Shown here: piece after piece, positions 1,196 through 38,616 of the stretch
How the letters are laid out: the number at the start of each line of letters is the position of its first letter
How positions within the stretch are numbered: position 1 is the stretch's first letter
Assembly (NCBI RefSeq): GCF_003313505.1
Contig: NZ_QMHO01000012.1
Span: forward strand, 1-64,000
Length of the DNA stretch: 64,000 nt
Reading direction: 5' to 3'
DNA from: Pedobacter nanyangensis
GTDB lineage: Bacteria > Bacteroidota > Bacteroidia > Sphingobacteriales > Sphingobacteriaceae
Position numbers and translations under genes: made by a program
The notes under the pieces: model-generated
The model's database searches: none
What the model was told of the DNA's origin: nothing
Seen by the model: the letters and a program-made list of their open reading frames with translations, nothing else

Positions 1196-2812
1196 ATGAA
1201 CAAAACAATCATCATTAACATAGGCAACTCCATCATCCACATTGAGGAAGAAGCTTATGAAATATTAATGGTTTATCTTAACGAAATTAAACAGCATTTT
1301 GCCAAAAGTGCCGACGATTTTGAAATTGTTAAGGACATTGAAAACCGCATTGCGGAAATGTTTGCAGAAATATTGCAAAAAGCACAAAAACAAGTAATTG
1401 ACGTTGCCGATGTACAAGGTGTAATTGCACAAATGGGCAGTGTACAGGATTTTGTTGGCGAAGAGGAGGAGGAAGTGAAAGTTGACAGCCAGTTTGGCAA
1501 CTACCACAGCCCCAAAAAACTATACCGTGATACCGACGAGGGTGTGATTGCCGGGGTATGTGCCGGGCTATCCCATTACCTTAATATGGAAGCACGCTGG
1601 CTGCGCCTAGCTTTTTTTCTACTTACTTTTGTAGCTGGTACAGGAATTTTGGTTTACCTGATCCTCTGGATTGCCATTCCAAGAGCCGCAACCCGCTCAG
1701 AGCGAATGGAAATGAAAGGCGAAGCCACCAATTTATATGGCTATAAAAAGAGCTTTGACGAAGAGCTTGCCGCTTTAAAGGCCAACATGAAATCAGCCAA
1801 TGACCATTTAGCACCGGTGGTCAAAAAATCGGGCAACTTCATTAGCAACATCATCAAAATGTTTGGCCGATTGATCAGGGGCATTTTTAAGATCTGCGGA
1901 AAGGGTATTGCCATTTTTATCATCGTATTTGGCTTTGGCTGCTTAATTGGCCTAATTATTTTATTGGGGATGCTACTTGGCTTTTGGGACGATAGCGCTT
2001 ACCAAGCCTTTCCGCTAAGTGTGATCAACACCCCTTTTAGAGAAGGCGTGATCATTAATGCCTTCCTTACCTTTTTCATCCCTATTTTGGCTTTGGTGCT
2101 TTTTGCACTAAAAGTGATCAATAACCGAATCGAAATCAGCAAGTACATGTGGTTTGCCTTGTTGGTTTTATGGTTGATAGGCACTGGCTCATCGGCCTAC
2201 TACATTGCCAAAATTTTGGGCGAATTTAAGGACGAAGCAGAGCTTGTGCAGCAAACAGAGCTTAAACAGTACCAAACCTATGTTATTGATGTGGATAAAA
2301 GCATGGTTTTTAACCGGGAAGACAGTATCCGCTACCATTTACAGGAAATGAACATGGGCAACAGGATTATTGTAGACAGCTATGACGGTGGCATGTTTAG
2401 AGATCCGAGGAGCGTTAGTTTCGAAATTGCCAAAAGTCACGATAATAAGGCTTCTATTACCGCCACCTACGAAGCTCAGGGCAGGGATTTCCAAACTGCA
2501 TTGAACCACGTTCAAAACATCAACTACAAATTTGTGCAAAAAGACTCGTCATTAGTATTTAGCCCCAACATACAGTTTAAGAAAAACATGCCTTGGCGTA
2601 GCCAACGTGTACATCTGTTGTTAAAAATACCGGTAGGCAGCCGAGTACTCATCAATGAGAACACGCACAGGTATTGGAGTTTTTATCAGTACTACTGGTG
2701 CCGCGATAACCGTGGAGATTACAACGAACCTTATCGCGAATCTATCATGACCGAAGAAGGCTTGAAGTGCAGCTACGATCTTGAGCACCCTGAAGAAACC
2801 AAAAAACCATAA
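1196..2812 (+). CDS. PspC domain membrane protein
   Basis: A 538-residue protein. Residues 1-90 form a predicted soluble helical region rich in charged residues. A PspC domain follows at about 107-168, with the family's KLYRDTDEGVIAGVCAGLS start and a transmembrane helix ending in the aromatic-proline motif LILWIAIPRA. Three or four more hydrophobic helices lie between about 230 and 345. The C-terminal 180 residues look extracytoplasmic. PspC proteins sense or buffer membrane stress in phage-shock systems. Here the gene follows a PadR regulator, suggesting PadR-controlled expression instead of PspF control. The C-terminal region matches no family I can name. Confidence 0.85.
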   Translation: MNKTIIINIGNSIIHIEEEAYEILMVYLNEIKQHFAKSADDFEIVKDIENRIAEMFAEILQKAQKQVIDVADVQGVIAQMGSVQDFVGEEEEEVKVDSQFGNYHSPKKLYRDTDEGVIAGVCAGLSHYLNMEARWLRLAFFLLTFVAGTGILVYLILWIAIPRAATRSERMEMKGEATNLYGYKKSFDEELAALKANMKSANDHLAPVVKKSGNFISNIIKMFGRLIRGIFKICGKGIAIFIIVFGFGCLIGLIILLGMLLGFWDDSAYQAFPLSVINTPFREGVIINAFLTFFIPILALVLFALKVINNRIEISKYMWFALLVLWLIGTGSSAYYIAKILGEFKDEAELVQQTELKQYQTYVIDVDKSMVFNREDSIRYHLQEMNMGNRIIVDSYDGGMFRDPRSVSFEIAKSHDNKASITATYEAQGRDFQTALNHVQNINYKFVQKDSSLVFSPNIQFKKNMPWRSQRVHLLLKIPVGSRVLINENTHRYWSFYQYYWCRDNRGDYNEPYRESIMTEEGLKCSYDLEHPEETKKP

Positions 2813-2820
2813 ACATAGTC

Positions 2821-2862
2821 AGGTATCAGTAAACAAAAAAACGCTGGAGTTTACTGATACCT
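2821..2862 (+). terminator. Strong stem-loop after the PspC gene
   Basis: AGGTATCAGTAAAC (2821-2834) pairs perfectly with 2849-2862 across a 14-nt A-rich loop. It lies eight bases after the stop codon. There is no T tract, so it may act as a processing or RNA-stability element instead of a classic terminator. A second hairpin, CCCCC-A6-GGGGG, follows at 2900-2915. Confidence 0.5.
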
Positions 2863-3001
2863 AAACAATTTATAACCAAAATTTTATCCCCGTAAAATAC
2901 CCCCAAAAAAGGGGGACGGATACCGTATTGCTTAAAAAATGACCGGATACTAGCAATGGCAAAAGCATCTATAAGCCATTGATCCCTAAAGAGAAAAAAT
3001 C

Positions 3002-5452
3002 ATGAAAAAAATATTACTACTAATGACATGCCTAATGGCGTGGGGAGCTTCCTTTGCCCAAAAAAAAGGAAATATCAGTGGCAAAATTGTTACTGAAACC
3101 AATGAGGCACTGCCCTACTGCTTGATCAAACTGATCGCGGTAACAGATAGCAACAAGCAGCTTGAAGCATCGGCAAACCTGGATGGTCTTTACCAATTCC
3201 AAAACATTGGTGAAGGCCAATATTGGCTAAGGGTAAAGATGGTAGGCTACCAAACCTATAGCAGCCAAAAATTCAATTTCACGGGAACTGACCTGCAACT
3301 TCCGGCAGTTAAAATGCAAAGCACCAGCAAGCAGCTGAAAGAGGTGAGTGTAGTGGGCCAAAAACCTTTTGTAGAGCGCAGGGCAGACAAAACTGTTTTA
3401 AACGTAGAAAATAATATTACTGCGGCCGGCAATAGTGTTTTGGAACTTTTGGAAAAAGCGCCCGGCATTACCATAGACCGCCAGAATGACCAAATTAAGC
3501 TGAATAACAAAGCAGGCATTACCATTATGATAGATGGCAAAACCAATTATCTTTCTGGAGCCGACATTACCACGGTATTGAGCAACATGACCAGTGATCA
3601 GGTGGGGAGTATTGAACTGATTACCAATCCTTCTTCTAAATATGATGCGGCAGGCAATGCGGGCATCATCAACATCAAACTAAAAAGAAACAAGAATTTG
3701 GGCACCAACGGCAGCGCAGTACTAAATACCGGATGGGGAACCGTTAAAAATGGCCCCAATAACCTGTACCGTCACAGCGCCAACCTTAATTTAAACCACA
3801 GGACTGAACAGTGGAACATTTTTGGCAATTCTACTTATAATACCCGCACCGGCTTTAACCAAACCTTGCTCGCTAGAACCGCTAATACGCCTGCAATGCG
3901 TACCACTTTCGACCAATCTTTTAATCGCAAGCAAAAAAGCCCGGGCTACTCGGCCAAAGTTGGCGCCGATTATTATGCCTCCAAAAAAACCGTAATGGGC
4001 TTAATGGTTGATTTCTTTGATGCCAAAAACGAAACCAACGGTTTAAGCAATGCAGATGTTAATGAATACCAAGCCAACACACATACCCTAAGCTATACTA
4101 AACAGCAAAATGGCAACAAAAATAAAATGCAGAATTTAACTGCCAACTTCAACATCAAACATGATTTGCCCAAGGCTGATGCCAACATTACCTTCGACCT
4201 TGATTACGCCAACTATAGCCTAGACCGAAATGACAACTTTGACACCCGCTACCTTAATGTAGCCCTGGAAGAAACAGACAACGCCAGTTTGCGCAATATC
4301 ATTGACGCCAAAATAAATGTTGTTGCCGCTAAAACCGATTTCTCATGGCCTTTTTCCAAAAGCTTGAAACTGGAAGCGGGGCTAAAAAGCAGTTTCGTAA
4401 ATACGAATAACGATTTCGTTTCCGAACAACTGAACAATGGTGTTTGGGCTGATCAGTTGGGCCGCTCAAACCTTTTTATCTACAAAGAAAATATCAATGC
4501 GGCTTATACAAATCTTTCGCAAAACTGGAAAAAATGGCAAGTACAGCTTGGCCTCAGGGCTGAACATACCCATAGTAAGGGTCATTCGGTGACCAGCAAT
4601 AAAATTGTTGACCGCAACTATGTATCCTTATTCCCTTCCATCTTTATTAAACAGGAACTCAACAAAAACCATAGCTTTAATTATTCCTACAGCCGCCGAA
4701 TTGACCGCCCAAGCTATCAGCAACTGAACCCCTTTGTACAATACCTGGATCCTTTCACCCTCGACAGCGGAAATCCTTACCTCAATGCTCAGTTTACCCA
4801 TAACATTGAGTTTGCCTACAATTTCAAGGAATTTTCGCTTTCGTTTAACTACGCCAATGTAAAGGGGATGATTACGCAAGTGAGCCGACAAAATGACCTC
4901 ACCAAACAAATAGAGGTTCAGCGCCAAAACTTCGGCCATGCCAACTTGTACAATGCCAATTTGTTTGTGCCCATCAAATTCACCAAGCAATGGAGCATGC
5001 AAAGTAACTTCTCGGCCATTTATCAGGATTATGAAGATGGAACGCTAACAGGTGCACAATTTCAAAAATCTAAGGTTTCCTTCAATTTCAACACTTCACA
5101 GTCGTTTACATTTTCCAAAACATTTAGGGCCGAGTTGAGCTTCTGGTACGACTCGCCTAGGATAAGGGGCGTAGAAGAAACCACCATTGCACAGTATGCG
5201 CTCAATTTGGGATTACAAAAAAGCTTGATGCAAAACCGTTTGAAACTACGTTTAGGTGTAGATGATATCCTGAATACCAACTATTGGGAAGGCCAAATGA
5301 AATATCAAAATGTGGATATGTATATCACCAACCACTATGTTAACCGCAGGGCTACCCTTAGTGTCAACTACAGTTTTGGCAACCAACAGGTAAAATCAGC
5401 CCGGAACCGAAAAACAGCACTTGACGACATCAAAGGCCGTACCGGCGGATAA
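3002..5452 (+). CDS. Outer-membrane beta-barrel receptor (TonB-dependent type)
   Basis: An 816-residue exported protein. Residues 1-20 form a signal peptide ending in ASFAQ. A carboxypeptidase-regulatory-like beta domain covers about 22-110 (GNISGKIVTETNEALPYCLIKL). A plug-like domain follows at about 115-215, and the rest forms a large beta-barrel ending in aromatic strands (SVNYSFGNQQ). This layout is that of the Bacteroidota family often called outer membrane beta-barrel protein, related to TonB-dependent transporters. The substrate cannot be told. A 119-residue lipoprotein follows 22 bases downstream and may be co-transcribed. Confidence 0.85.
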   Translation: MKKILLLMTCLMAWGASFAQKKGNISGKIVTETNEALPYCLIKLIAVTDSNKQLEASANLDGLYQFQNIGEGQYWLRVKMVGYQTYSSQKFNFTGTDLQLPAVKMQSTSKQLKEVSVVGQKPFVERRADKTVLNVENNITAAGNSVLELLEKAPGITIDRQNDQIKLNNKAGITIMIDGKTNYLSGADITTVLSNMTSDQVGSIELITNPSSKYDAAGNAGIINIKLKRNKNLGTNGSAVLNTGWGTVKNGPNNLYRHSANLNLNHRTEQWNIFGNSTYNTRTGFNQTLLARTANTPAMRTTFDQSFNRKQKSPGYSAKVGADYYASKKTVMGLMVDFFDAKNETNGLSNADVNEYQANTHTLSYTKQQNGNKNKMQNLTANFNIKHDLPKADANITFDLDYANYSLDRNDNFDTRYLNVALEETDNASLRNIIDAKINVVAAKTDFSWPFSKSLKLEAGLKSSFVNTNNDFVSEQLNNGVWADQLGRSNLFIYKENINAAYTNLSQNWKKWQVQLGLRAEHTHSKGHSVTSNKIVDRNYVSLFPSIFIKQELNKNHSFNYSYSRRIDRPSYQQLNPFVQYLDPFTLDSGNPYLNAQFTHNIEFAYNFKEFSLSFNYANVKGMITQVSRQNDLTKQIEVQRQNFGHANLYNANLFVPIKFTKQWSMQSNFSAIYQDYEDGTLTGAQFQKSKVSFNFNTSQSFTFSKTFRAELSFWYDSPRIRGVEETTIAQYALNLGLQKSLMQNRLKLRLGVDDILNTNYWEGQMKYQNVDMYITNHYVNRRATLSVNYSFGNQQVKSARNRKTALDDIKGRTGG

Positions 5453-36347: not shown

Positions 36348-37310
36348 ATGATACTTGTTACAGGCGCTACGGGGTTTTTAGGAGCAGAATTGGTAAAGCA
36401 ACTGACCAACAAAAATTTGGCAGTGAGGGCCATCAAAAGAAATGGCTCAGCCATTCCTGCCCCGCTACAAAACAATCCGCTGGTTACCTGGCACTTGGCC
36501 GATGTAAGCGAAACCGAAAGCCTTGCCGATGCTTTTGAAGGCATTAGCCAGGTTTATCACTGTGCCGCTACAGTATCCTTTAACCCTAAAGATAAGGCCC
36601 AGCTTTTTAAGATTAACATTGAGGGTACGGCCAACATCGTTAACCTTTGCACGGAGAACCAGGTGCGTTTGCTTCACGTAAGCTCCATAGCGGCATTGGG
36701 CATTGCCAAGGAAGGCCAGCTCATCACCGAAAAGCATTTTTGGGAGTACGATCCCAAAGCGCACAACTATGCCATTTCAAAATACGAAGGCGAAATGGAA
36801 GTTTGGCGTGGCATAGCCGAAGGATTGGACGCCGTGATTGTAAATCCAGCCGTAATTATTGGCAAAAACGCTGGCTACAACGGTAGCGGCGCAATTTTCA
36901 AACTGGTAAAAGACGGCTTGAAGTTTTATACCGACGGTGCTACCGGCCTTGTGGATGTAGAAGATGTAGCCAAAGCCATGATCTTGCTCATGGATAGTGA
37001 AATTACCGCCGAACGTTTTACCTTAAGTGCCGAAAACCTACATTACAAGGACTTTTTTGCACAGATTGCACAAGGCTTTGGCATCAAAGCTCCATCTGTA
37101 GAGGCCAAACCCTGGATGCTGGGCATTGCTTGGAGAGCCGCCAAACTGGCTTCGGTTTTTACCGGAAAGGCTCCCAGCCTCACCAAAGATGCCGCCCGCA
37201 GCAGCTTTAACCTCAGCTATTACAGCAACCAAAAAATAAAAGACACCCTAAACTTCGAATTTAAACCCCTACACCAAAGCATTGCCGAGGTATGCAATGC
37301 CTTGAAATAA
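36348..37310 (+). CDS. NAD-dependent epimerase/dehydratase family protein (extended SDR)
   Basis: A 320-residue extended short-chain dehydrogenase. The NAD(P) site VTGATGFLGAEL opens the protein, the Asp after the second strand appears in LADVSETESLADAF, and the catalytic YAISKYEGE gives Tyr and Lys. A region VNPAVIIGKN is typical of dihydroflavonol-4-reductase-like members that act on small aldehydes, sugars or sterol-like molecules. The substrate is unknown. It is followed by the SerB fusion gene after seven bases, so the two are co-transcribed. Confidence 0.9.
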   Translation: MILVTGATGFLGAELVKQLTNKNLAVRAIKRNGSAIPAPLQNNPLVTWHLADVSETESLADAFEGISQVYHCAATVSFNPKDKAQLFKINIEGTANIVNLCTENQVRLLHVSSIAALGIAKEGQLITEKHFWEYDPKAHNYAISKYEGEMEVWRGIAEGLDAVIVNPAVIIGKNAGYNGSGAIFKLVKDGLKFYTDGATGLVDVEDVAKAMILLMDSEITAERFTLSAENLHYKDFFAQIAQGFGIKAPSVEAKPWMLGIAWRAAKLASVFTGKAPSLTKDAARSSFNLSYYSNQKIKDTLNFEFKPLHQSIAEVCNALK

Positions 37311-37317
37311 ACTCCAG

Positions 37318-38616
37318 ATGAAACAGCAGAACTTTTACATCATTGATTTTGACAGCACATTTACCCAAGTTGAAGCCTTAGACGAACTCGCCCGTATTTC
37401 CCTTGCCAAACACCCCGAGCGTGAAGCCATTTACCAAAAGATAGAGGACTACACCAACTTAGCCATGGAAGGAAAGCTATCGTTTTCGGAAAGCTTGGCC
37501 CAACGGGTGAAACTGCTAGAAGCCAATGAAGAGCACCTGCAAAAACTCATCAAACATCTAAAAAAGAAAGTATCGAAATCTTTTTCCCGCAATGCGGATT
37601 TTTTTAAAAAACATGCTGATGAGGTACTCATTGTTTCGGGTGGGTTTAAGGAATTTATTACGCCTGTGGTAAGCCAGTACCACATCAAAAAAGAAAATAT
37701 CTATGCCAATACCTTTGTAACTACCGGTGACGGCAAAATTATAGACTACGATCATGCCAACCCGTTGAGCGAAGAGGGCGGGAAGGTGAAACTGATGCAG
37801 CAATTGAACTTACAGGGTAATTTGTATGGCATTGGCGATGGTTATTCTGATTTTCAGCTTCGCGAAAGTGGCCTCATCAAAAAATTCTATGCCTTTACCG
37901 AGAATATTGCCCGGGAAAGTATTGTTAACAAAGCAGATCACGTGACGCCAAGTTTTGATGAGTTTTTGTACGTAAATAATTTGCCAAGGGCGATATCTTA
38001 TCCCAAAAACAGGATTTTGTGCCTGGTGATTGGCGAGGTGCCTGCCGATACCATCAATTTCCTCAAAAAGGATGGTTTCTCCATTCGCCATAAGACTGAA
38101 TTTGAAGAGAAATATGTGGCTGATGTGGGCATGATGATTTTGGCCAATGGCGAAAAAATTGAAGACGAGAAACTCAAAAGAGCAGTAAAACTTAAAACCA
38201 TTGGCTATTTGGGCAATGCTAAAAACAAGCTCTCCTTTCAAATTTGCAATGAAATGGGCATTGTGATTTTTGATGATGCCAAAGCAAATCCAAGAAATGC
38301 CTTGTTTATCCCCAAACGTGTAGCCGATTTCATGAATAAAGGCACCACTTATTTGAGCTGCAACTTCCCCAATTTGCAATTGCCGGCTATTGATAGGTCG
38401 CACCGATTGATCCACATCCACAAAAATGTACCAGGCATTATGGCAAAAATCAACACCATTTTTGCCAAGCACAATATCAACATTGTGGGGCAATTTTTAA
38501 TGACCAATAGCACCATCGGCTATGCCATTACCGATATCAATACCGAGTACGACAAGCAATTGTTCAAATCATTGAAAAAAATTGAACATACCATAAAGTT
38601 CAGGGTATTGTATTAA
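37318..38616 (+). CDS. SerB phosphatase fused to a NAD-domain-less SerA with ACT domain
   Basis: A 432-residue fusion. Residues 1-215 are a HAD-type phosphoserine phosphatase, the last step of serine synthesis: DFDST at 10-14 gives nucleophile Asp10 and acid Asp12, then SGGFKEFI and GDGYSDFQL complete the motifs. Residues 227-360 match the substrate-binding half of 3-phosphoglycerate dehydrogenase (for example LKTIGYLGNAKNKLSFQIC), and 363-432 match its C-terminal ACT domain (RLIHIHKNVPGIMAKI, ending IKFRVLY). The NAD-binding domain with its GxGxxG motif is absent. The ACT part may sense serine and control the phosphatase. Confidence 0.85.
   Translation: MKQQNFYIIDFDSTFTQVEALDELARISLAKHPEREAIYQKIEDYTNLAMEGKLSFSESLAQRVKLLEANEEHLQKLIKHLKKKVSKSFSRNADFFKKHADEVLIVSGGFKEFITPVVSQYHIKKENIYANTFVTTGDGKIIDYDHANPLSEEGGKVKLMQQLNLQGNLYGIGDGYSDFQLRESGLIKKFYAFTENIARESIVNKADHVTPSFDEFLYVNNLPRAISYPKNRILCLVIGEVPADTINFLKKDGFSIRHKTEFEEKYVADVGMMILANGEKIEDEKLKRAVKLKTIGYLGNAKNKLSFQICNEMGIVIFDDAKANPRNALFIPKRVADFMNKGTTYLSCNFPNLQLPAIDRSHRLIHIHKNVPGIMAKINTIFAKHNINIVGQFLMTNSTIGYAITDINTEYDKQLFKSLKKIEHTIKFRVLY

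Follow-up and report, generated by a model that had tools for sequence, protein, structure and literature searches.

A SerB-type phosphatase of Pedobacter and its relatives that carries the substrate-binding and ACT domains of SerA without the NAD-binding domain

The window analysed here is a stretch of 64,000 nucleotides from Pedobacter nanyangensis (contig NZ_QMHO01000012.1, positions 1 to 64,000). It carries a gene for a protein of 432 residues plus stop codon (P0001), in which a HAD phosphoserine phosphatase (residues 1 to about 222) is fused to the substrate-binding domain (residues 229–358) and the ACT domain (residues 359–432) of 3-phosphoglycerate dehydrogenase, SerA. The NAD-binding domain of SerA is missing. 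This SerB-SBD-ACT protein, called the short form below, is probably a conserved, re-purposed fusion of single origin. We consider it rather probable that P0001 is the cell's SerB with a C-terminal serine sensor, derived from a SerB–SerA fusion trimmed in frame, by which feedback was shifted to the last step of serine synthesis. Serine control would be the likeliest function of the SerA half, a view we hold with reasonable confidence; phosphoserine as the substrate, pairing of the ACT domains, serine binding and inhibition are what we infer for it. The features are collected in Table 1. The gene position and the domain limits given in a first-pass annotation of the window are right by open reading frame, Pfam, phmmer and structure, and its interpretation overall is partly supported.

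Table 1. Features of the SerB-SBD-ACT gene and its upstream neighbour in the window
Feature	Position	Strand	Evidence or remark
CDS, SerB-SBD-ACT protein	37318..38616	+	homologue in 249/250 sampled genomes of the order
HAD-IB phosphoserine phosphatase domain, residues 1-215	37318..37962	+	Z 28.6 to 3kd3; conserved motif residues
Linker and start of SerA part, residues 216-233	37963..38016	+	invariant S227, Y228, P229, K230, R232, I233
Substrate-binding domain, first part, residues 227-327	37996..38298	+	phmmer, profile, structure; R60 equivalent is A276
Seam, residues 327/328	38296..38301	+	NAD-binding domain of full fusions (about 192 residues) missing here
Substrate-binding domain, last part, residues 328-358	38299..38391	+	phmmer, structure; alone weak by profile
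ACT domain, residues 359-432	38392..38613	+	Pfam; H368, N370, N388 correspond to E. coli H344, N346, N364
Upstream gene, NAD-dependent epimerase-like	36348..37310	+	ends 7 bp before CDS start; name by eye

The phosphatase half was identified first by sequence comparison. Residues 7–213 match the phosphoserine phosphatase-like structure 3kd3 (E 4e-25). P0001 scores 64 bits with the NCBIfam HAD-IB subfamily model, whose cut-off is 45; of the models tried for SerB, it passes this one only. The serB equivalog model TIGR00338 gives P0001 67 bits, and 70.9 bits in the search of the own genome, and its cut-off of 144 bits is not reached; this model itself rises over its cut-off in just 7 of 14 control genomes. 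Residue conservation was counted in 125 distinct short forms out of 146 rows, mostly from Pedobacter. D10, D12, T14, E19, R63, S107, K156, D174 and D178 are each found in 125/125, and the HAD motifs I–IV (DxDST, S, K, GDGxxD) are complete in all of them and in 17/17 full-length SerB–SerA fusions examined, so that the phosphatase motifs noticed earlier in residues 1–215 are genuine.

The SerA half could be traced in three segments. Residues 328–432 match E. coli SerA 305–410 by phmmer (E ~3e-17), and residues 227–328 match SerA 5–112 weakly when taken alone (1.2 to 2.5 bits, phmmer on E. coli chains). A profile of segment 227–327 from 125 distinct homologues finds E. coli SerA 7–110 at 38.9 bits, the best of 2000 shuffled SerA sequences reaching 5.5. 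Under the same control the profile of the ACT segment gives 74.2 bits (shuffled best 5.9), and that of the 31-residue segment 328–358 is weak, with 7.2 against 4.9. Pfam matches HAD and ACT in P0001 and gives no match to the NAD-binding domain PF02826. The 2-Hacid_dh match stays below its cut-off (21 against 24.6 bits) and lies slightly above it in both relatives tried (L178, 27.6 bits; L128, 25.0 bits). The best Pfam ACT match is PF22629, which would suggest an AHAS-type ACT, but E. coli SerA gives the same match, so it is no sign of a different sensor. The tandem N-terminal ACT models ACT_6 and ACT_PSP_2 are both without a match in P0001.

The AlphaFold model of P0001 (pLDDT 92.3, pTM 0.84) agrees with this division. 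Its residues 4–222 superpose on 3kd3 with Z 28.6 and show the PSP fold of the human enzyme (6q6j, Z 25.9). Residues 229–432 superpose on E. coli PGDH (1psd_A, 7–410) with Z 26.2 and an rmsd of 1.7 Å over 203 residues, and further families ranked lower. The two SerA parts are thus predicted to hold their mutual arrangement despite the loss of the domain between them. P0001 and E. coli-type (type II) SerA are alike in this predicted arrangement and in the serine-site residues; they differ in that P0001 is without the NAD-binding domain and the catalytic residues, and has R60 replaced. The SerA origin of residues 227–432, earlier proposed by eye, is borne out by the profiles above shuffled controls and by the predicted fold.

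Full SerB–SerA fusions of about 630 residues have the same order of parts and can be aligned along the whole short form, those of family f47 being nearest. They differ by the retained NAD-binding domain and SerA catalytic residues (17/17 examined). They align to the short form as two pieces, 1–329 and 328–432, with about 192 residues between, and in searches with P0001 they give two match pieces where short forms give one. One full fusion was modelled as well (pLDDT 86.9, pTM 0.69), and its helices 330–346 and 519–539 flank the NAD-binding domain. A single helix, 327–341, replaces both hinge helices in the short-form model, whose confidence falls to 78 across residues 321–330. According to these models, the missing piece matches the inserted NAD-binding domain together with parts of both hinge helices.

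The positions of K141, R240, E269 (a catalytic residue of SerA) and H292 are absent from the short form in 125/125. The substrate arginine R60 has its equivalent in 0/125, with Ala, Gly or Asp at this place in 122/125. All five residues are retained in the 17 full fusions. R60 of E. coli SerA is listed with the catalytic site in the available text of PMC6300728. Because four of these positions are absent and R60 is replaced throughout, dehydrogenase activity of P0001 would not be expected; the first-pass annotation had noted the missing Rossmann domain and called this activity unlikely, and both points are supported.

The serine site shows the opposite behaviour. H368, N370 and N388, equivalent to H344, N346 and N364 that bind L-serine in E. 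coli SerA (PMC6300728, available text), are found in 125/125 short forms, and so is P372; the ACT domain of SerA type, as had been supposed, is retained. Residues S227, Y228, P229, K230, R232 and I233 at the start of the SerA part are identical in 55/55 aligned forms (41 short, 14 full). Every segment of the short form is under strong purifying selection. In 86 short-form pairs of moderate synonymous change, 77 to 86 of them usable per segment, dN/dS is 0.007 in the HAD domain and 0.016 in the ACT domain; the first and the last part of the substrate-binding domain have 0.025 and 0.012. The ACT and substrate-binding parts change faster than the phosphatase, which counts against the serine-sensor reading.

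Segment 227–327 deserves separate attention. Its mean identity is the lowest among short forms (0.65; HAD 0.81) and the highest among full fusions (0.69; HAD 0.53), and it is the segment in which short and full forms diverge most (0.31). We read this as a changed role under continuing constraint. A segment that changes fastest in short forms and slowest in full fusions is also what would be expected if the catalytic role had gone and the SerA part were a structural leftover, a unit that merely keeps the phosphatase dimeric or soluble, with serine having no effect. The statement in PMC6300728, as far as its text is available, that additional domains are not always functional speaks for such a leftover and counts against serine control. 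A mere scaffold, however, would not need H368, N370, N388 and P372, which are unchanged in 125/125, and the dN/dS of the ACT domain also argues against it. We regard the leftover as possible but doubtful.

Serine control by the retained half could work as follows. The NAD-binding domain, an insert within the SerA substrate-binding domain, would have been removed in frame in an ancestor of the Sphingobacteriaceae. The substrate-binding domain would then have closed up as a single piece, one helix replacing two hinge helices, and the ACT domain would still be carried in the SerA arrangement. Two ACT domains would pair, and L-serine would sit at their interface, contacted by H368 and N370 from one chain and by N388 from its partner. 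For E. coli SerA the available text of PMC6300728 describes how serine bound between the ACT domains makes the substrate-binding/ACT unit rotate relative to the NAD-binding domain. In P0001 the invariant linker connects this unit to the phosphatase, which would be the part that is moved and slowed by serine. Serine at the paired ACT interface would in this way change phosphatase activity, most likely by inhibiting it. The hinge glycines 336–337 of E. coli are retained neither in the short form nor in most full fusions, so that the coupling may differ from that of E. coli SerA. One objection to serine control is that blocking the last step would make phosphoserine accumulate.

Mycobacterial SerB2 is likewise a HAD-IB phosphoserine phosphatase joined to ACT domains, and it is inhibited by L-serine (PMC10564941, available text). 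It is a precedent in function, not in architecture, for the control proposed for P0001: SerB2 and SerB like it have two tandem N-terminal ACT domains and no SerA substrate-binding domain, and P0001 has one C-terminal ACT of SerA type on a SerA substrate-binding domain. Neither a SerB–SerA fusion nor the short form was found in the literature by title and start of abstract, a search that mostly did not extend to subscription papers.

The serine pathway of the own genome fits a shift of control. It encodes a separate SerA of 316 residues without ACT, with the NAD domain present, directly after SerC on another contig; the SerC model is over its cut-off there. This SerA, absent from the first reading of the window, can do the dehydrogenase step. 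In the proposed mechanism the ACT-less SerA beside SerC would do so, and end-product control would therefore act on the last step. Among HAD-type phosphatases, the superfamily to which the search for SerB was directed, no gene of this genome but that in the window exceeds the cut-off of the HAD family model. The window gene is also the best match of the serB model (70.9 bits; the next is partial with 31.9) and hence, by sequence, the best SerB candidate of this genome. It counts against the favoured reading that no match in this genome attains the cut-off of the serB equivalog model (at best 70.9 of the 144 bits).

This shortfall (67 against 144 bits by TIGR00338 for P0001, which passes no phosphoserine phosphatase equivalog cut-off) would also suit a phosphatase whose substrate is some other small phosphate ester, such as histidinol phosphate, with the ACT domain sensing another amino acid. 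We consider this very unlikely. E19 and R63, which correspond to residues that bind phosphoserine in M. jannaschii PSP, are present in 125/125 short forms and 17/17 full fusions; the relatives of P0001 are fused to SerA, and the window gene holds both the only HAD match over cut-off and the best serB match of its genome. The available text of PMC5764234 proposes for four bacteria that annotated phosphoserine phosphatases serve histidine synthesis, which speaks for another substrate. That of GapMind (PMC7311316) does not name a serine gap for Pedobacter.

SerA and SerC were surveyed in 32 selected genomes. In 11/11 short-form genomes of the own family the ACT-less SerA (67–79% identity) lies beside SerC. 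The three f4 genomes with full fusions have the fusion and also an ACT-less SerA/SerC pair (58–61%, 3/3). In the full-fusion genomes of f8, f10 and f47, matches to the ACT-less SerA are all at most 41% identical (14/14), the best match is the fusion itself in 11/14, and a SerC of the own-genome type has no match in 13/14, the last one, G245, giving a weak match of 27%. The remaining four genomes are G328 and three with a separate SerB, and their best SerA matches are 32–37% identical. G328, a genome of family f2, combines a short form with a SerC of 52% and a neighbouring SerA of 384 residues that has a weak ACT match of its own. With this exception, the ACT-less SerA is not a strict companion of the short form. 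In genomes to which the short form is native, the first step is probably carried out by an unregulated SerA.

The constant presence of the ACT-less SerA beside SerC in the 11 family genomes, together with the predicted SerA fold of the retained half, could also mean that the C-terminal half acts in trans, joining the ACT-less SerA or SerC and serving feedback on the first step or the passing of intermediates. We think this quite unlikely. The NAD-binding domain makes the subunit contacts of SerA dimers and is missing here, and in the own genome the window gene and the ACT-less SerA are placed on separate contigs. Moreover, full fusion and ACT-less SerA occur together in the three f4 genomes, so that coexistence with this SerA does not set the short form apart, and G328 has no ACT-less SerA. 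It is similarly improbable that the SerB-bound SerA half is a detached regulatory subunit that associates with the ACT-less SerA, by which one serine sensor on the last enzyme would control the first and the last step together.

The short form is widely distributed. It is found in 249/250 sampled genomes of the order and in 16/16 genera, with one match apiece among the matches listed, the weakest of which has E 1.3e-175. These single matches exclude recent damage, frameshift or assembly error. The idea of a broken fusion of this one genome has to be given up: the form is old and strongly conserved across the order, is under purifying selection and belongs to one clade. In the own genus it is found in 58/60 genomes, both misses being 82–83% complete. 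The sole miss in the order sample, G523 (99% complete), has no match at E 0.01 either, and in genus g192, outside this sample, 3/3 genomes are without a match at the same threshold. The gene is thus not indispensable across the whole family. The g192 genomes (G657, G663, G665) are about 2 Mb in size and 95–99% complete; without a match to P0001, they are possible serine auxotrophs.

Among 392 genomes of the phylum the short form is found in 13, namely 12 of the own family and G328. The suggested search of Bacteroidota for full SerB–SerA fusions returned them in 30/392 genomes (f4 12, f8 8, f9 3, f10 3, f47 4); examples are L130–L146, single chains that unite the initial and the final step of serine synthesis. 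Of 41 own-family genomes, 37 have a short form matched by the HAD model PF12710, a protein search adds that of G158, and the remaining three are those of g192. Absence by a single model is weak evidence, since G158 has a short form that PF12710 does not find. In 13/41 of these genomes the short form is the sole HAD match, and many others have further HAD matches. The four strongest of the extra matches are frames of 201–212 residues; two that were read both pass HAD-SF-IB-hyp1 and score 26.9 and 32.7 of 144 bits with the serB model. A HAD match with stops in G657 was considered as a gene remnant and rejected: a different HAD is encoded there, and the neighbours that the gene has in the window are all absent from the region.

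The short forms make up one clade in the HAD tree (support 97/96), the C-terminal tree (97/91) and the joint tree of both parts (100/99), and this clade adjoins the f47 fusions in all three (91/97, 88/94 and 99/98). The roots of the three trees are insecure. The HAD tree has an unresolved base and a very long row for its E. coli root, and the separate SerB L231 and L232 fall among fusions; in the C-terminal tree the chosen outgroup does not make up one side of any branch and the separate SerA L236 and L238 fall among fusions; the joint tree is without an outside root. The simplest history would be that about 192 residues were removed in frame once, in an ancestor. We infer that the direction was loss and not gain of the NAD domain, from parsimony and the R60 change in addition to the trees. 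An independent re-fusion of SerB with an ACT domain is disfavoured because the substrate-binding domain is also retained on either side of the seam; the HAD and C-terminal trees moreover share their nearest relatives, the f47 fusions. Close kinship of the short form with the f4 fusions is disfavoured by an AU test (p 0.007), for which the f4 group was chosen after inspection of the trees. The ACT-less SerA and the deletion co-occur in genomes, from which no stepwise order follows.

The family thus looks like a natural case in which an inserted catalytic domain was excised from a two-enzyme fusion and the allosteric part was strongly conserved, with full-length relatives surviving for comparison. 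If serine controls P0001, feedback by the end product of a textbook pathway has been relocated throughout a bacterial family, from the pathway's first step to its last. Annotation models also leave a gap here. A generic HAD-IB model is the only one that the short form passes, and L130, the full fusion tested, passes the SerA model and falls below the SerB one.

In L236 (f55) separate serB and serA genes are neighbours (1348–3224), and their longest frames overlap by 22 bases. This arrangement suggests how the SerB–SerA fusion began and may be its likely forerunner. The short form of G328 (L239, G328:C1:12500-20500, 3339–4634) is nested in the clade of the own family, which suggests transfer to f2; horizontal transfer is likely by this placement. 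L023 comes from a record titled Flavobacteriaceae bacterium PS02338 and has a 93% identical gene that falls among Pedobacter, and the title may be mislabelled. ACT-ACT-HAD phosphatases occur in other Bacteroidota (L245–L249), and L245 and L249, the two of five checked by Pfam, have ACT_6 and ACT_PSP_2. Judged by these sequences, SerB occurs in at least four layouts within the phylum. In G333 (f24) a SerA gene lies in two frames (L237, 3852–5082), by real damage or sequencing error.

The neighbourhood of the short form is conserved as well. The epimerase-like gene is present in 80/80 named loci, where its match ends at most 140 bp upstream in 78, and in 33/40 further, shorter loci. Other nearby genes of the 80 named loci, assigned by eye, are arginase-family-like (78), branched-chain aminotransferase-like (75) and tryptophan dioxygenase-like (72); these names are taken from resemblance and presumably indicate an arginase-family enzyme, a branched-chain aminotransferase and a tryptophan dioxygenase. 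An open frame of 227 residues runs antisense to the SerB-SBD-ACT gene at 37810–38493 of the window (minus strand).
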